Origin: an uncultured Flavobacteriaceae bacterium
Lineage (GTDB): Bacteria; Bacteroidota; Bacteroidia; Flavobacteriales; Flavobacteriaceae
DNA length: 47,506 nt
Direction: 5' to 3'
NCBI GenBank assembly: GCA_905479745.1
Contig: CAJQNO010000055.1
Span: forward strand, 1 to 47,506
The position numbers were made by a program, and so were the translations under genes. Within the stretch, counting starts at the first letter, position 1. Each line of letters opens with the position of its first letter. Of this stretch, positions 5,399-16,115 are shown piece by piece. Below the pieces are notes generated by a model. That model searched no databases. It worked only from the letters and a program-made list of their open reading frames with translations, and had not been told where the DNA came from.

Positions 5399-8218
5399 TT
5401 GAGGTTCAGGAATTTTATATATATAATTGTTATTTGCTTCGGAATTACTCCGTTGGCCGGGCAGCACAAAATTTCTATCGACGCAAGTCTGGAAACATCA
5501 GAGAACAAGCTCAATAACAGTCAAGAGGTTGTGTATAAGAACACTTCCGAAGACATACTCACAGAGATTTATTTCAACGACTGGGCCAATAGTTTTGCCA
5601 CCAAAACCACTCCGTTAGCCAGGCGATTTGGTGAGAATTACGATAGTTCCTTTCACTTTGAAAAAGATAAGGACCGAGGTCGTACTAAAATATTTGGAAT
5701 TACCAACGAAGCAGGACAAGCCCTGGAATGGGAGCGCGGAGAAGAGATCGATTTCTTTAAGGTACAATTGGACAAACCCCTTGCCCCTGGTGAATCTTAT
5801 ACCTTGAATTTATTGTATTCGATTAAACTTCCAAGTGACAAATTTACCCGATACGGATATACCAAGGAAGGTAATTACAACTTGAGATACTGGTATATTG
5901 CTCCGGCTGTCTACGACGGTAAATGGCATGCGTATAGTAATAAGAATACAGACGATCTATATCAATACCCTTCAGAATTTAAAATTACCTTAACTACCCC
6001 ATCGGCCTACAAGCTAACTACAGACCTGAAAGTATTAACCCAAGGTATTTCCGGGAATAAGCGGATCTCTGTATTACACGGCAGCGATCGTATGAGTGTT
6101 GATCTTTTCCTGGAGAAACGGTTAAACTACGAGACTGTGATCACCGATAAATTTGAGGTGGTTACCGATATGAAAGACAGGAAGGTAAATCCTGCCTTAC
6201 GAGCGCTTACCATGGATAGAATTGTTCATTTTCTTGATGAGAATCTGGGCCCGTATCCCTTTGATAAGATGGTAGTTAGTGAGATAGAATATCGAAATAA
6301 TCCGGTGTATGGGTTAAATCAATTACCCGATTTTATTAGTCCGTTTCCAGATGGTTTCGAATACGACATGGAGATGCTAAAGACTGCTACGGCGAACTAC
6401 CTTGAGAATACCCTGGTGTTACATCCTCGGGAAGATTACTGGTTGTACGGGGCCATACAGATCTATCTCATGAAGGAATACGTGAATAAGTACTATCCCA
6501 ACATGAAGATCATAGGGAGCTTGAGTAATTTTTGGGTGATCCGCTGGTCACACGCTTCCGAACTTGAATTCAATGATCAGTACCCGCTACTCTATCTCAA
6601 TATGGCTCGCAATAATTTGCATCAGCCGTTAAGTACTCCTAAGGACTTGTTAACCAAGTACAATAAGAACATTGCAAACAGTTACTATGGAGGAGAAGGC
6701 CTTTACTACCTGGCCGATTATCTTGGAAAACAGCCTCTGTCTGATGCGTTAAAGGAATTTTATTCTGAAAAGCTTCTAACGCCGGCCACTTCAGAAGATT
6801 TCAGGAACATATTGAATTCGAAAACAGAATTACCCATAGATTGGTTCTTCGATAATTATGTGGATAAACGCAGCACCATAGATTTTAAGATCACTAAAGT
6901 TGAAAAGATAGACGACTCTCTGGATGTGTTTGTAAGAAACCGAAGAAAGTACCCTATGCCGGTATCACTATACGGAATCAATAAGGATAGTACCATCTTT
7001 AAAAAATGGATCCCACCAATAGATAGTATGGCAGTAGTTAGGGTTCCTTCTGAAAATGTAAAAAAGCTGGTTCTGAACAAGGAAGCATCGATACCCGAAT
7101 TCAACCAGCGAAATAATTATAAAACTCTTACCGGTCTACTAAACAGACCTATCCAGTTTCGTTTATTCCAGGATGTTGAAGACCCAAAATACAACCAGCT
7201 GTTCTTTATGCCGGTTTTCGAATACAACCTTTACGATGGTTTCACCGTTGGGCCAAAATTGTATAACAAAACAGTCCTTCCAAAAGGGATTCATTACAAA
7301 CTGGAACCTCAGTACGGGTTTAGATCCAAGACCTTAGTAGGAAACGGATCATTGATCTATACCCAACGCTACAACGGAAGTCTGTATGCGCTTCGATTTG
7401 GTATTTCGGGAAGCTCATTTTCCTATAACGACGGACTTTTTTACCGCAGGATCACCCCATATATGACGATGGCCTTTCGGCAAAAAGACCTTCGGAATAA
7501 TGAGAAACAGTATATCAACCTGAGGAACGTAAATGTATACAGGGACGATAATCCCTTAGATCCGGATCAAGAACCCAATTACAGTGTGGTAAACCTACAG
7601 TATGTGTATTCGAACCCAAATTTAATTCACTATTTCCGTAGCGTACTCGATTACCAGATATCAACTAATTTCTCGAAGATATCCGCCACCCTCGAATATC
7701 GAAAGCTCTTTCTTAATAACCGCCAACTGAATATTAGGTTCTTCGCAGGGACCTTCCTATACAACAACACTCCAAAGGAAGATGATTATTTCAGTTTCGC
7801 CCTAGACCGGCCAACCGATTATCTTTTCGACTATAATTATTACGGCCGAAGTGAGGACACAGGGCTGTTCAGTCAGCAGATCATCATCGCAGAAGGAGGA
7901 TTTAAATCGAAATTACAGCCGGCCTTTGCCAACAGCTGGATCACGACAGTAAATGCAAGCACCAATATCTGGAAATGGATATATGCTTATGGTGACGCTG
8001 GTCTTGTTCATAATAGAGGAATTGGTGGAGGTACCGAAGCTGTTTTCGACACGGGGGTGCGCTTGAGTCTGGTGGCAGATTATTTCGAATTGTATTTTCC
8101 ACTTTACTCTAACCTGGGTTGGGAACCCGGACTTGGAAACTACGATCAGCGAATAAGGTTTATCGTTACCCTAAGTCCAAAGACGCTTCTAGGTCTCTTT
8201 ACCAGGGAATGGTATTAA
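5399..8218 (+). CDS. M1 aminopeptidase-like exported protein fused to an outer-membrane beta-barrel; zinc motif absent
   Basis: This is a 939-residue protein with a signal peptide ending about residue 21 (ITPLAGQ). Residues roughly 25-560 follow the layout of M1 (gluzincin) metallopeptidases: an N-terminal beta-sandwich, then a stretch where the HExxH zinc motif belongs but reads TLVLHPREDYWLYGAIQIYL, then a helical part ending in a M1-like ELPIDWFFDNYVDKRS. No HExxH occurs anywhere. From about residue 590 to the end the sequence has alternating Tyr/Asn-rich beta strands and ends in TREWY, an aromatic terminus typical of beta-barrels. The start must be TTG, since no ATG lies upstream of the signal peptide in frame. 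Probably an outer-membrane protein that is not a classical zinc peptidase; function unknown. Confidence 0.85.
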   Translation: MRFRNFIYIIVICFGITPLAGQHKISIDASLETSENKLNNSQEVVYKNTSEDILTEIYFNDWANSFATKTTPLARRFGENYDSSFHFEKDKDRGRTKIFGITNEAGQALEWERGEEIDFFKVQLDKPLAPGESYTLNLLYSIKLPSDKFTRYGYTKEGNYNLRYWYIAPAVYDGKWHAYSNKNTDDLYQYPSEFKITLTTPSAYKLTTDLKVLTQGISGNKRISVLHGSDRMSVDLFLEKRLNYETVITDKFEVVTDMKDRKVNPALRALTMDRIVHFLDENLGPYPFDKMVVSEIEYRNNPVYGLNQLPDFISPFPDGFEYDMEMLKTATANYLENTLVLHPREDYWLYGAIQIYLMKEYVNKYYPNMKIIGSLSNFWVIRWSHASELEFNDQYPLLYLNMARNNLHQPLSTPKDLLTKYNKNIANSYYGGEGLYYLADYLGKQPLSDALKEFYSEKLLTPATSEDFRNILNSKTELPIDWFFDNYVDKRSTIDFKITKVEKIDDSLDVFVRNRRKYPMPVSLYGINKDSTIFKKWIPPIDSMAVVRVPSENVKKLVLNKEASIPEFNQRNNYKTLTGLLNRPIQFRLFQDVEDPKYNQLFFMPVFEYNLYDGFTVGPKLYNKTVLPKGIHYKLEPQYGFRSKTLVGNGSLIYTQRYNGSLYALRFGISGSSFSYNDGLFYRRITPYMTMAFRQKDLRNNEKQYINLRNVNVYRDDNPLDPDQEPNYSVVNLQYVYSNPNLIHYFRSVLDYQISTNFSKISATLEYRKLFLNNRQLNIRFFAGTFLYNNTPKEDDYFSFALDRPTDYLFDYNYYGRSEDTGLFSQQIIIAEGGFKSKLQPAFANSWITTVNASTNIWKWIYAYGDAGLVHNRGIGGGTEAVFDTGVRLSLVADYFELYFPLYSNLGWEPGLGNYDQRIRFIVTLSPKTLLGLFTREWY

Positions 8219-8553: not shown

Positions 8554-10968
8554 ATGAACACAAATCCACAAACAGATAAAAACCTTTCTTTCGACGACTT
8601 TAAAGCCGAAGTCCTTAACGATTATAAGATCGCTGTTACCAGCAGGGAGTGTAGTTTGTTAGGGCGACGTGAAGTGCTAACAGGAAAGGCGAAATTTGGG
8701 ATTTTTGGCGATGGCAAAGAAGTACCTCAGCTAGCCTGGGCAAAGGCATTTAAGAATGGCGACTGGCGGAGTGGGTACTACCGCGACCAAACCTTTATGA
8801 TGGCCATAGGCGAATTAACTATCGAGCAGTTCTTCGCCGGACTATATGCGCACACCGATATAGATGCCGACCCAATGAGTGCCGGCCGGCAAATGGGAGG
8901 GCATTTTGCTACTCACAGCCTGAATGAGGATGGCAGTTGGAAAAATCTAACAGAGCAAAAGAACAGTAGTGCCGATATCTCCCCTACTGCTGGTCAAATG
9001 CCACGACTACTCGGTTTGGCACAAGCTTCGAAGATCTTCAGAAATGTAAAAGAGGTAAAAGGCCTTACACAGTTCTCCATCAATGGAAATGAAGTTGCCT
9101 GGGGAACGATTGGGAATGCAAGTACAAGTGAAGGGTTATTCTGGGAAACCATCAATGCTGCCGGAGTACTTCAGGTGCCCATGGTTATAAGTATATGGGA
9201 CGACGAATACGGTATTTCGGTACACGCGAAACACCAGACCACCAAAGAGAATATCTCCGAGATACTAAAAGGATTCCAGCGAACCGACACCGAAAATGGT
9301 TATGAGATACTTAGGGTAAACGGCTGGGATTATGCGGCACTTATAGATGTTTATCAAAAAGCCGGCGTTATCGCTAGAGACGAACATGTCCCTGTACTTA
9401 TCCATGTCCAGGAATTAACGCAACCACAAGGTCATTCAACCAGTGGGTCTCACGAACGATACAAAAGTGAAGAACGTTTGCAATGGGAGCGGGAATTCGA
9501 CTGTAACGTGAAGATGCGGGAGTGGATGATCGACAATGATATGGCTACGGAAGAAGAATTAGCAGCCATAGAAAAAGATATTAAGAAAGAAGTAAGGGAC
9601 GGTAAAAAAGCAGCCTGGCAGGCCTTTATTGCGCCTCAGCAGAAAGAGCAGCAGGAAGCTATTACCCTTATAGGGAATCTTGCTGAAAGTTCTTCGAACA
9701 AGAATTTCATTGAAAAAATAAAGAATGATCTTGCTTCAGAGAAAGAACCTTTACGCCGCGATATCATCGCTGCTGCCCGTAAGGCGCTTCGTTATGTGAT
9801 TTCCGAAGAATCCCCGGAAAGAAGACAATTAGAAGACTGGGTAGATAACTATTTCGAGATCATCCAGCCTAAATACGCTTCTCATTTGTATTCGGAAGCA
9901 GAAAATAAAGCAACAAATATTTCAGAAATAAAACCCACTTATTCCAAAAATGCTGAAGAAGTAGACGGACGTGTGGTACTAAGAGATAATTTCGATCGTA
10001 TTTTCAATAATATTCCAGAAGCTATAGTGTTTGGTGAAGACAGTGGTAAAATTGGGGATGTAAACCAGGGACTCGAAGGGCTGCAGGAAAAACATGGCCA
10101 ATTCCGTATTGCCGATACAGGTATACGGGAGGCGACCATCCTGGGCCAGGGAATTGGTTTGGCTATGCGTGGGCTGCGTCCTATTGCAGAGATCCAGTAT
10201 CTGGACTATATTCTTTATTGCCTGCAGATCATGAGTGATGATCTTGCAACGGTTAGATACCGAACTCTTGGAAAGCAAAAAGCTCCGCTTATTGTAAGAA
10301 CACGCGGGCATCGCCTGGAAGGGATCTGGCACTCCGGATCGCAGATGGGGGGGCTTATACATTTACTTAGAGGATTGTACCTACTGGTACCCCGAAATAT
10401 GACCAAGGCCGCCGGTTTTTACAATACCTTGCTGGAAAGTGACGAACCAGCGGTGATCGTGGAATGCCTTAATGGGTATCGCCTAAAAGAAAAGATGCCG
10501 AATAACCTCGGGCAATTCAGGACTCCTATTGGAGTTGTGGAAACTGTAAAAGAAGGAACCGATATCACGCTGGTATCTTATGGAAGTACCTTGCGAATTG
10601 TAGAATTAGCCGCTAAAGAACTACAGCAGGTTGGTATCGATGCCGAGATCATTGATGTGCAGAGCCTGCTTCCTCTCGATCTAAATCACGATATCGTTAA
10701 GAGTCTTGGTAAGACCAATCGCCTTTTAGTGATCGATGAGGACGTACCTGGAGGAGCTTCGGCTTATATACTACAACATATCCTGGATGAGCAGAACGGT
10801 TACAGGCATTTGGATAGTAAGCCGCAAACCCTTACGGCAAAACCTCATCGCCCCGCCTATGGTACCGACGGTGATTATTTTTCGAAACCTTCAGCAGAGG
10901 ATATTTTTGAAAAGGTGTATGCCATTATGCATGAAGCAAATCCTTCCGATTATCCTCGATTGCGATAA
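8554..10968 (+). CDS. Fused alpha/beta E1 component of a 2-oxoacid (branched-chain type) dehydrogenase, thiamine diphosphate-dependent
   Basis: This 804-residue protein joins an E1-alpha-like half (about 1-400) to an E1-beta-like half (about 470-804). The alpha half holds the thiamine-diphosphate region: IGNASTSEG at about 186-194, then WDDEYGIS starting at 215, where canonical enzymes have GDG and NN; Asn188 and Asp216/217 replace the usual metal ligands. As I recall, this swap is typical of the Bacteroidota fused family. TQPQGHSTSGSHERYK matches the E1 phosphorylation-loop region. The beta half carries GEDSGKIGDVNQG, DTGIREATILGQGIG and DEDVPGGASAY. It would decarboxylate a 2-oxoacid and acylate a lipoyl E2, which is not encoded nearby. 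It is monocistronic by spacing. Confidence 0.9.
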   Translation: MNTNPQTDKNLSFDDFKAEVLNDYKIAVTSRECSLLGRREVLTGKAKFGIFGDGKEVPQLAWAKAFKNGDWRSGYYRDQTFMMAIGELTIEQFFAGLYAHTDIDADPMSAGRQMGGHFATHSLNEDGSWKNLTEQKNSSADISPTAGQMPRLLGLAQASKIFRNVKEVKGLTQFSINGNEVAWGTIGNASTSEGLFWETINAAGVLQVPMVISIWDDEYGISVHAKHQTTKENISEILKGFQRTDTENGYEILRVNGWDYAALIDVYQKAGVIARDEHVPVLIHVQELTQPQGHSTSGSHERYKSEERLQWEREFDCNVKMREWMIDNDMATEEELAAIEKDIKKEVRDGKKAAWQAFIAPQQKEQQEAITLIGNLAESSSNKNFIEKIKNDLASEKEPLRRDIIAAARKALRYVISEESPERRQLEDWVDNYFEIIQPKYASHLYSEAENKATNISEIKPTYSKNAEEVDGRVVLRDNFDRIFNNIPEAIVFGEDSGKIGDVNQGLEGLQEKHGQFRIADTGIREATILGQGIGLAMRGLRPIAEIQYLDYILYCLQIMSDDLATVRYRTLGKQKAPLIVRTRGHRLEGIWHSGSQMGGLIHLLRGLYLLVPRNMTKAAGFYNTLLESDEPAVIVECLNGYRLKEKMPNNLGQFRTPIGVVETVKEGTDITLVSYGSTLRIVELAAKELQQVGIDAEIIDVQSLLPLDLNHDIVKSLGKTNRLLVIDEDVPGGASAYILQHILDEQNGYRHLDSKPQTLTAKPHRPAYGTDGDYFSKPSAEDIFEKVYAIMHEANPSDYPRLR

Positions 10969-11016: not shown

Positions 11017-11024
11017 GATATTTG
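11017..11024 (+). promoter_or_regulatory. Possible -7 element for the asnB leader transcript
   Basis: GATATTTG differs from TAnnTTTG only at the first base. It lies 26 bases before the leader ATG and would start transcription near 11030, so that the leader ORF and the terminator are both in the mRNA. No well-spaced -33 TTG is visible. Confidence 0.35.
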
Positions 11025-11050
11025 ATGAACCAAAAGACAATCACAAGCTG

Positions 11051-11095
11051 ATGTTACTTAATAACAACAATAATAATAACAATAGAATGCCGTAG
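11051..11095 (+). CDS. Asn-rich leader peptide of asnB (putative attenuator peptide)
   Basis: The frame ATG ... TAG encodes 14 residues, MLLNNNNNNNNRMP, with eight consecutive Asn codons (11060-11083). The eight codons are a mixture of five AAT and three AAC: they vary only at the synonymous third position, as expected if Asn decoding is what is selected rather than a pure trinucleotide repeat. The peptide ends 23 bases before an intrinsic terminator, and the next gene is asparagine synthetase. This is the architecture of classical amino-acid attenuators: scarcity of charged Asn-tRNA would stall the ribosome on the Asn run and alter folding so that RNA polymerase reads through. The antiterminator pairing is not convincingly identified. 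There is no Shine-Dalgarno sequence, which is normal for this phylum. Confidence 0.8.
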   Translation: MLLNNNNNNNNRMP

Positions 11096-11118
11096 CAAAA
11101 GCTTGTCGCGATATAACG

Positions 11119-11151
11119 CCCGTCAGGTTTTTGAATCTGACGGGTTTTTTT
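11119..11151 (+). terminator. Intrinsic terminator/attenuator in the asnB leader
   Basis: CCCGTCAG (11119-11126) pairs perfectly with CTGACGGG (11137-11144) around a ten-base loop, and seven T residues follow. It lies between the Asn leader ORF and asnB, 73 bases before the asnB ATG. ACAAGCT (11043-11049) and AGCTTGT (11100-11106) are a perfect 7-bp pair enclosing the leader ORF, and could form an upstream hairpin. A weaker, wobble-rich pairing of 11100-11108 with 11138-11146 could compete with the terminator. Confidence 0.85.
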
Positions 11152-11224: not shown

Positions 11225-12889
11225 ATGTGTGGAATTGTATGTGCCTTCGACCTCAAGCAACCTTCGGAAGAGTTGCGACCTCAATTATTAACCATGGCGA
11301 AATGTATTCGCCACCGCGGACCCGACTGGAGTGGAATTTACGATCATGATAAAGCGATATTAGCGCATGAGCGTCTGGCTATAGTAGACCCAACCTCGGG
11401 AAAACAACCCCTGTTTTCAGAAGACAAAAAATTAATCCTGGCGGCTAATGGGGAGATCTACAATCATCGTGAACTACGGAAACCTTATGAAGGCAACTAC
11501 AATTTCCAAACTCAGTCAGACTGCGAAGTGATCCTCGCACTATATAAAGATAAAGGAGAAAAATTCCTGGACGACCTTAATGGTATCTTCGGATTTGCCC
11601 TGTACGACGCAGAAAACGATGCTTATTTAATAGCACGAGACCACATGGGAATTATACCGCTTTACATGGGCTGGGATAAACACGGTACCTTTTATGTTGC
11701 TTCCGAATTAAAGGCGCTTGAAGGTGTTTGTACCAAAATAGAATTGTTCCCCCCGGGGCATTATCTGTACAGTAAGGATGGCGAGTTAAAAAGATGGTAT
11801 AGTCGCGATTGGATGGATTATGAAAATGTAAAAGATAACGAGTCTTCTATAGACGAATTACGCGCGGCGCTCGATGCTGCAGTTCACAGACAATTAATGA
11901 GTGATGTGCCGTATGGTGTGTTATTGTCAGGAGGATTGGACTCCTCTGTTACTTCTGCCCTGGCTAAAAAATACGCCGATAAGCGCATCGAGACCGACGA
12001 TACTGCCCAAGCCTGGTGGCCTCAATTGCACTCCTTTGCAACTGGTCTTGAAGGATCACCAGACCTCGCTGCTGCACGAGTTGTGGCAGACTACCTTGGG
12101 ACCGTGCATCACGAGGTAAAATTCACCATTCAGGAAGGCATAGACGCCATACGTGATGTGATCTATCACCTGGAAACGTACGATATAACTACGGTGCGGG
12201 CATCTACCCCCATGTACTTAATGGCCAGAGCGATAAAAGCAATGGGGATTAAAATGGTACTTAGTGGAGAAGGTAGTGATGAGATCTTTGGAGGCTATCT
12301 ATATTTCCATAAGGCTCCCAATGCCGAAGAATTTCACAAAGAAACGGTTCGTAAACTCGATAAGCTACATCAGTACGATTGTTTACGGGCTAACAAATCA
12401 CTGGCAGCCTGGGGAATAGAAGGCCGGGTACCGTTCCTCGATAAAGAGTTTATGGATGTAGCAATGAGGCTTAATCCGAAAGACAAAATGATCACAGAAG
12501 GCCGAATGGAAAAATGGGTGCTGCGAAAAGCTTTCGAAGATATGTTACCGGAGAGTGTTGCCTGGAGGCAGAAAGAACAATTTAGTGATGGTGTGGGATA
12601 CAGCTGGATAGACACTCTTAAAGAAATGGTGAATGCCGAAATTACGGATGAGCAGATGAAAAATGCGCATCACCGCTTCCCTATTCAAACACCAACCAGT
12701 AAAGAAGAATTCTATTATCGTACTATATTCGAAGAACATTTCCCAAGTGACACCGCAGCCTTAAGCGTACCTTCTGTGCCCTCTGTAGCCTGTAGTAGTC
12801 CGGTAGCGTTAGAATGGGATGAAAGTTTTAAGAATATGAACGATCCCTCGGGCCGTGCTGTGAAGAATGTTCATGACGAGGCGTATTAA
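11225..12889 (+). CDS. asnB: Asparagine synthetase B (glutamine-hydrolysing)
   Basis: The enzyme makes asparagine from aspartate, ATP and glutamine. It has 554 residues, the usual length for the bacterial AsnB group. Cys2 of the N-terminal MCGIVC is the glutaminase nucleophile after Met removal; RHRGPDWSG and the NGEIYNH motif belong to the class II glutaminase domain. The ATP-pyrophosphatase loop SGGLDSS is at residues 235-241, and the synthetase domain continues to GRVPFLDKEFMD and the C-terminal region. The sequence is complete with no frameshift. Its leader holds an Asn-codon-rich peptide and a terminator, so transcription is probably controlled by Asn-tRNA charging. The next gene is convergent, so asnB appears monocistronic. 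Confidence 0.98.
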   Translation: MCGIVCAFDLKQPSEELRPQLLTMAKCIRHRGPDWSGIYDHDKAILAHERLAIVDPTSGKQPLFSEDKKLILAANGEIYNHRELRKPYEGNYNFQTQSDCEVILALYKDKGEKFLDDLNGIFGFALYDAENDAYLIARDHMGIIPLYMGWDKHGTFYVASELKALEGVCTKIELFPPGHYLYSKDGELKRWYSRDWMDYENVKDNESSIDELRAALDAAVHRQLMSDVPYGVLLSGGLDSSVTSALAKKYADKRIETDDTAQAWWPQLHSFATGLEGSPDLAAARVVADYLGTVHHEVKFTIQEGIDAIRDVIYHLETYDITTVRASTPMYLMARAIKAMGIKMVLSGEGSDEIFGGYLYFHKAPNAEEFHKETVRKLDKLHQYDCLRANKSLAAWGIEGRVPFLDKEFMDVAMRLNPKDKMITEGRMEKWVLRKAFEDMLPESVAWRQKEQFSDGVGYSWIDTLKEMVNAEITDEQMKNAHHRFPIQTPTSKEEFYYRTIFEEHFPSDTAALSVPSVPSVACSSPVALEWDESFKNMNDPSGRAVKNVHDEAY

Positions 12890-14996: not shown

Positions 14997-16115
14997 ATGC
15001 GATACCTAATTTTTTTCTTCGGAATCTTATTCACAATAAATGCCCATGCGCAGCAGCCGTATAAGTTTACAACCGAAATTGACCTGGAGACCACGCCTGT
15101 CATCAGCCAGGGGCGCACCGGTACCTGCTGGAGTTTTTCCAGTACGTCTTTTTTAGAATCGGAGATCATCAGGCTTACAGGGAAGGAGATCGATCTTTCC
15201 GAAATGTATACCGTGCGAAACACCTACCCGAAAAAAGCCGAGAATTATGTGATGCGACAAGGAAAAGCGCAATTTAGTGAAGGTGGGCTGGCTCACGATG
15301 TGATGAACTCTGTGAGGGATTACGGACTCGTCCCGCAATCGGCTTACAGTGGGATATTTAAAGGTGAGACCGGGCATAATCATGCCGAAATGGCCGCTGT
15401 CTTAACGGCCATGGTAGAAACCTATGTGGACAACCCCGGCAGAAAACTCAGCAAGAAGTGGGACGATGCCATAGAAGCGGTACTGGATGTTTATATGGGG
15501 CAAAATCCAAATATTTTCACTTACGAAGGAAAACAGTACTCACCCATGTCGTTTCTTGAAATGACTAAGATTGTACCCGAGGATTATATAACTATAACGT
15601 CATTTACTCACGCTCCGTTCTATTCAGAATTTATTTTGAACATTCCCGACAACTGGAGTTATGGAAGTATGTATAACGTACCTCTGGACGAGATGATCGC
15701 AACCCTGGATAATGCTCTTAAGAATGGTTTCACTGTCGAACTGGACTGTGATGTAAGCGAACGTACCTTTTCATCTAAGGACGGGGTAGCTGTAATTCCG
15801 AAGGATGCCGATAATAATGTAAAAGCCTTACAGGGAGTGTATCCTGAAATGAGTATTAGTCAGGAATATCGCCAGGATGAATTTGAGAATTTCACAACAA
15901 CCGACGATCATTTAATGCATATTACAGGGATACTGCGCGATCAAAACGGAACCAAGTACTATAAGGTGAAGAACAGCTGGGGAACCGATGAGAGCAGAAA
16001 TGCCAATGGTGGCTACGTTTATTTTAGTGAAGCCTATATGAAACTTAAAGCCATTAGCATTACAATTCATAAGGATGCCATACCACAGACCACAGCGAAA
16101 AAGTTAAATTTATAA
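14997..16115 (+). CDS. Exported C1-family cysteine peptidase (bleomycin hydrolase/PepC-like)
   Basis: The 372-residue protein has a signal peptide (cut near NAHA-QQ, residue 18), unlike the cytoplasmic PepC. The papain-like active site is complete: Gln38 and Cys44 in SQGRTGTCWSFSS, His305 in DDHLMHITGI, and Asn326 in KVKNSWGT. Length and the helical insert after the Cys motif resemble bleomycin hydrolases (aminopeptidase C). The C-terminus is TAKKLNL rather than the short self-processing tail of classical PepC, so exo- or endopeptidase behaviour is open. It is divergent from menB and begins a run of three genes for exported proteins on the plus strand. Confidence 0.92.
   Translation: MRYLIFFFGILFTINAHAQQPYKFTTEIDLETTPVISQGRTGTCWSFSSTSFLESEIIRLTGKEIDLSEMYTVRNTYPKKAENYVMRQGKAQFSEGGLAHDVMNSVRDYGLVPQSAYSGIFKGETGHNHAEMAAVLTAMVETYVDNPGRKLSKKWDDAIEAVLDVYMGQNPNIFTYEGKQYSPMSFLEMTKIVPEDYITITSFTHAPFYSEFILNIPDNWSYGSMYNVPLDEMIATLDNALKNGFTVELDCDVSERTFSSKDGVAVIPKDADNNVKALQGVYPEMSISQEYRQDEFENFTTTDDHLMHITGILRDQNGTKYYKVKNSWGTDESRNANGGYVYFSEAYMKLKAISITIHKDAIPQTTAKKLNL

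Follow-up and report, generated by a model that had tools for sequence, protein, structure and literature searches.

Transcription of asnB in this uncultured Flavobacteriaceae bacterium is very probably governed by ribosome-mediated attenuation in the region upstream of the gene, with charged Asn-tRNA as the sensed signal, as judged from comparative sequence analysis and RNA folding predictions. Comparison of related sequences brought out the leader with its Asn content, three stems that exclude one another, and the association with asnB. An earlier sequence-only reading of the window (the whole analysed stretch of 47,506 nucleotides) had already interpreted the region as attenuation in response to Asn starvation, and this interpretation gained support from the Asn-rich leaders in relatives and from the predicted antiterminator and pre-emptor stem. 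The elements described in that reading were reproduced exactly: a 14-codon ORF with eight Asn codons in a row, a perfect 8-bp GC-rich hairpin located 23 bases past the leader stop and followed by seven T, and a 7-bp pair that encloses the leader ORF. All features of the window reported below are given on the forward strand.

The leader ORF (11051–11095) encodes MLLNNNNNNNNRMP in 14 codons and reads ATG TTA CTT AAT AAC AAC AAT AAT AAT AAC AAT AGA ATG CCG TAG, with the eight consecutive control codons for Asn (AAT/AAC) at positions 11060–11083. An ORF of this kind, with eight or more AAY codons in a row at most 8 codons from the ATG, occurred once in the window and in 0 of 200 Markov-simulated windows. 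Genome-wide, an ATG followed by (AAY)5 within 30 bases was found at three places, including C44 and C158; at the C44 place, an in-frame TAA is located two codons past the ATG. Across 51 distinct asnB leaders, the Asn-rich ORF was kept at a length of 11–19 codons, of which Asn accounted for 48%, and some of these leaders had short Asn runs. The AAN codons of the 51 leaders comprised 345 AAT/AAC vs. 13 AAA/AAG, which upheld the earlier view that the synonymous variation between AAT and AAC reflects conservation of the peptide. In bacteria, one tRNA reads both Asn codons, and the free exchange of AAT and AAC fits with this. The ORF with its run of cognate codons is predicted to be translated.

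Additional observations were made at both ends of the leader ORF. The last codon before the leader stop encoded Pro in 38/51 and Thr in 12/51 leaders (alignment A2). A G, pairing with the C of YTAC in the start region, precedes the stop codon in most leaders (NCG-TAR); RNA pairing or slow termination at Pro-stop may account for the conserved last residue. A further small ORF, MNQKTITS (window positions 11025–11051; ATG AAC CAA AAG ACA ATC ACA AGC TGA), begins near the inferred transcription start and ends in a TGA that overlaps with the leader ATG. Relatives such as L083 (TGAAGAACC) lack the ATG of this small ORF, which is probably incidental.

Downstream of the leader stop, the intrinsic terminator (stem 3:4) consists of a 5′ arm (region 3; CCCGTCAG, 11119–11126), a 3′ arm (region 4; CTGACGGG, 11137–11144) and a T-run of seven T (11145–11151). 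A hairpin followed by a T-run was present in 51/51 leaders. In an alignment that was itself fitted to stem 3:4, 98.3% of the cells of this stem were paired, and five of its pairs had changes in both arms. An intrinsic terminator with a covarying stem was thereby located between the leader and the structural gene in every one of the 51 leaders, at distances from asnB of 22–165 nt. Terminator-like sites were found at 51/51 leader-bearing asnB genes vs. 1/63 leaderless asnB genes of relatives. The next gene in the window, asnB (11225–12889), encodes a glutamine-hydrolysing asparagine synthase B; the identity assigned in the first reading was confirmed by a match to the NCBIfam equivalog 'asparagine synthase B' (NF006949) with 945.7 bits (E 7e-285, cut-off 499). 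The product of the gene after the leader thus synthesizes the control amino acid. The genome also encodes AsnRS.

A second stem (2:3), which excludes the terminator, was identified as the putative antiterminator. Region 2 (GTAGCAAAAGCTTGT, 11092–11106) has a conserved core (AAAACTTG) that has either region 1 or region 3 as its partner; its positions 11096–11105 form the antiterminator 5′ arm and pair with the 3′ arm (CAGGTTTTTG, 11124–11133). A ribosome at the leader stop codon could cover this 5′ arm. Stem 2:3 comprised eight core pairs with 99.3% of cells paired and, unlike stem 3:4, was absent from the alignment model. At one of its pairs, 31 sequences had A-U, 13 had G-C and five had G-U. 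The observed values for paired cells, double changes and covariation score were unmatched by any shuffle, and the true register outperformed every slid version of the stem (at most 69% of cells paired). The double changes sit on few independent branches, and a phylogeny-aware sign test had too few pairs for significance. The sequence-only reading had not settled on an antiterminator and had named 11100–11108 with 11138–11146 as the best option; that pairing was rejected, and the conserved, covarying antiterminator was instead found at 11096–11105 with 11124–11133.

The most unusual feature of the switch is its pre-emptor stem (1:2), a predicted pairing that ties the leader start codon to the stop codon. 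In the lower part of the stem, region 1a (ACAAGCT, 11043–11049), supplied by a CAAG-type sequence just 5′ of the leader ATG, pairs over 7 bp with 11100–11106; the 7-bp pair noted at the outset therefore belongs to a longer stem. Region 1b (TGTTAC, 11052–11057) lies over the start codon and pairs with 11092–11097 (GTAGCA) across the stop codon. The pairing energy of region 1a with its own partner was −6.25 kcal/mol vs. −5.83 ± 0.15 kcal/mol with permuted partners (reached in 6/2000), and for the whole 1:2 stem, partner swaps reached the own pairing in 0/5000 permutations. Tested one by one, 40/51 sequences had a stronger own stem than with shuffled flanks (p < 0.05 each), although kinship among the sequences inflates the counts for 1:2 as well as those for covariation. 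A C in the second codon occurred only together with a TAG stop (6/6 leaders; Fisher p 0.006), a pattern that pairing between this C and the G of TAG would produce. In L125, the stem is shifted in register, with GCACAAG pairing with CTTGTGC, and L029, L124 and L007 were without an obvious region 1. A pre-emptor stem that would free region 3 was thus a feature of the set, with a few sequences in which it was weak or missing.

The competition between the stems was reproduced in RNA folding predictions. With a ribosome mask on the first codon of the Asn run and before synthesis of region 4, the median P(2:3) was about 1.0, and with the mask at the stop codon, P(2:3) exceeded 0.5 in 0/51 sequences (median 0.00) and only the terminator formed. 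Equilibrium folding of the full-length RNA always preferred the terminator, and antitermination must therefore be kinetic, decided while the polymerase moves, which is also the case in known attenuators. When folded at equilibrium without a ribosome, stem 2:3 was predicted to outcompete stem 1:2 in most sequences (median 0.92 vs. 0.05); stem 1:2 is complete earlier and may win kinetically.

From this anatomy we infer translation, stalling, timing and a regulatory response of the asnB leader as follows. When Asn-tRNA is charged, the ribosome would reach the leader stop codon and cover region 2, upon which region 3 would pair with region 4 and transcription would terminate at about position 11151. 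When Asn is short, the ribosome would stall within the Asn run, 5′ of region 2, leaving region 2 to pair with the emerging region 3. The terminator would then come too late, and with the terminator blocked, the polymerase would continue into asnB. On a leader free of ribosomes, region 2 could, on emerging, be captured by region 1 at the start codon; this would favour termination and may hinder new initiation.

To follow the leader among relatives, asnB homologues were collected and their upstream regions were read. The nearest relatives carried Asn-rich leaders before asnB with the parts in the same order, and among genomes of the same genus, both asnB and the leader were present in 7/7. Culturable relatives that carry the leader include Aequorivita and Luteirhabdus. 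The first reading had suggested that upstream regions of related asnB genes should carry AAY runs with a conserved hairpin and that the competing stems should be inspected for covariation; the relatives did carry AAY-run ORFs together with a covarying hairpin, with stem 3:4 covarying and stem 2:3 having A-U/G-C double changes. A covariance model built from 20 leaders was run over 397 Flavobacteriaceae genomes and returned strong matches in 40 of the 397, one in each (E ≤ 5e-9; the next match at 7e-6). All of these were located directly upstream of asnB (40/40 genomes), as compared to 0/10 for the ten next-best matches. Weaker matches (E ≥ 7e-6; 16 inspected) were dismissed as generic terminators away from asnB and with no Asn ORF. 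Model scans of a sample of genomes at the order and phylum level gave no strong match outside the family. A single change on a 115-row asnB tree sufficed to explain the 51 rows with a leader, at weak branch support (78), so that a single origin of the leader in its branch is likely, albeit not proven. The range of the candidate attenuator, first proposed for Bacteroidota, is one branch of marine Flavobacteriaceae and not Bacteroidota generally.

Among 27 class-level asnB upstream regions that were read, one contained an unrelated Asn leader with a terminator (L166). In this genome (G1042, of another Bacteroidia family), the Asn leader (MKTQTHNNNRFFALASR), its terminator and an antiterminator that is strongly predicted occupy roughly the stretch from 160 to 50 nt before asnB. 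L166 resembles the leader of the window in its Asn triplet leader, terminator, predicted antiterminator and asnB target, but it is unrelated in sequence. No leader of this type was found in G983, the only other genome of this small family with a closely related asnB. This single case hints at independent invention of an Asn leader.

Leaders for other amino acids were also observed in the genome of the window. A His leader (MNYQQQHHHHIIFHAHAR; L155, G000:C42) with a terminator (ACCCGTTTGAG...CTCAAACGGGT) and a T-run is located upstream of hisG (7057–7599), and a Phe-rich leader (MNNNSTYFNFWFFYFLGRHRVDM; L156, G000:C157) with the terminator CCCGGAACGTATTTCCGGGTTTTTTT is located upstream of pheA (15494–16033). 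Since hisG and pheA also have leaders and terminators, leader attenuation is probably general in this genome.

Upstream of the asnB leader, a −7-like element (GATATTTG, 11017–11024) of the Bacteroidota TAnnTTTG type, matching 5/6 consensus letters, is located ~34 nt before the leader ATG. Elements matching at least 5/6 letters were present in 32/51 leaders, compared to a shuffle mean of 3.9, mostly 31–38 nt upstream of the ATG. We assign 11017–11024 with moderate confidence as a putative promoter element before the leaders, from which transcription would start near 11030, ~20 nt upstream of the leader ATG.

Other explanations of the region were weighed against attenuation. An E1-type gene (8554–10968) lies upstream on the same strand and stops about 150 nt before the hairpin, and an E1 homologue is found in the vicinity of asnB in 40 of the 42 leader loci searched. 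This arrangement would agree with a hairpin that serves as the 3′ terminator of the E1-type gene, the Asn ORF being a chance AT-rich repeat. However, the distance from the end of E1 to asnB ranges from 200 to 2407 nt across loci, yet leader and terminator remain before asnB; moreover, an E1 terminator would need neither an AAY-only leader ORF nor stems 1:2 and 2:3. Because the spacing of the neighbourhood varies while the leader stays, the E1-terminator explanation was rejected as highly improbable. Slightly more credible, though still very unlikely, is an action of the leader on asnB translation or mRNA stability through the stalled ribosome, rather than on termination. The position of the leader start codon inside stem 1:2 would suit such an effect, as would the situation in F. 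johnsoniae, in which structure around the start codon tunes initiation (PMC6847099). Nevertheless, the intrinsic terminator was kept with the leader in 51/51 cases, 22–165 nt before asnB and exclusive with a conserved antiterminator, and among the stems examined none sequesters the asnB start.

The least probable explanation, to which we give hardly any credence, is a T-box-like tRNA-binding, riboswitch-like or protein-bound antiterminator, with the ORF being secondary. A conserved TTGTCGCGATAT-type stretch between leader and terminator would suit this explanation, but it is explained by regions 2 and 3 and, in one subgroup, the inner 2:3 hairpin, and it varies in other subgroups. The conserved sensor is instead the Asn-codon run. 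A search of Rfam with E values of up to 10 gave only sub-threshold chance matches, with no T-box and no other relevant family among them.

As a ribosome-mediated attenuator, the asnB leader shares with the enterobacterial attenuators (trp, his, pheA, thr, leu, ilv) a short ORF rich in cognate codons, four regions with the alternative pairings 1:2/3:4 or 2:3, and an intrinsic terminator before the biosynthetic gene. It differs from them in its control amino acid (Asn), its target (asnB) and its occurrence in an SD-less phylum. In the E. coli trp leader, stem 1:2 has its 5′ strand within the coding sequence, where the Trp codons lie, whereas the pre-emptor stem of the asnB leader joins the start codon to the stop codon. 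The Asn-specific T-boxes of Firmicutes likewise respond to tRNA-Asn charging, but they bind the tRNA directly and have no leader ORF, and no T-box match was obtained in the window. Within the same family, indications that leader peptides attenuate amino-acid operons from upstream positions were reported for F. psychrophilum, with conserved 5′ elements named at pheA and hisG (PMC9723704). The same general mechanism was proposed for these candidates, and the genome of the window has hisG and pheA leaders too; the main text of that paper contains no mention of asnB or Asn and presents no stems or antiterminators. Ribosome-mediated attenuators for other amino acids have been described (PMC2965389, PMC1262725, PMC1183508), and in a word search of the main texts of these papers, asparagine and asnB were absent. 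No Asn or asnB leader was found in the open-access literature, and the initial statement that no Asn leader has been described for asnB provisionally holds for open papers.

Until now, Asn has been known to be served by T-boxes or DNA-binding regulators, and with the asnB leader it would be added to those amino acids whose supply is sensed through stalled ribosomes. We consider the chances about even that this is the first leader-peptide attenuator for Asn, that its start-to-stop stem makes initiation part of the switch, and that such leaders possibly evolved repeatedly (L166). The asnB leader would provide a worked-out attenuation anatomy for Bacteroidota, for which the literature found gives brief mentions only. 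The combination of a start-stop stem with SD-less initiation would make it a good test of transcription-translation coupling in Bacteroidota.
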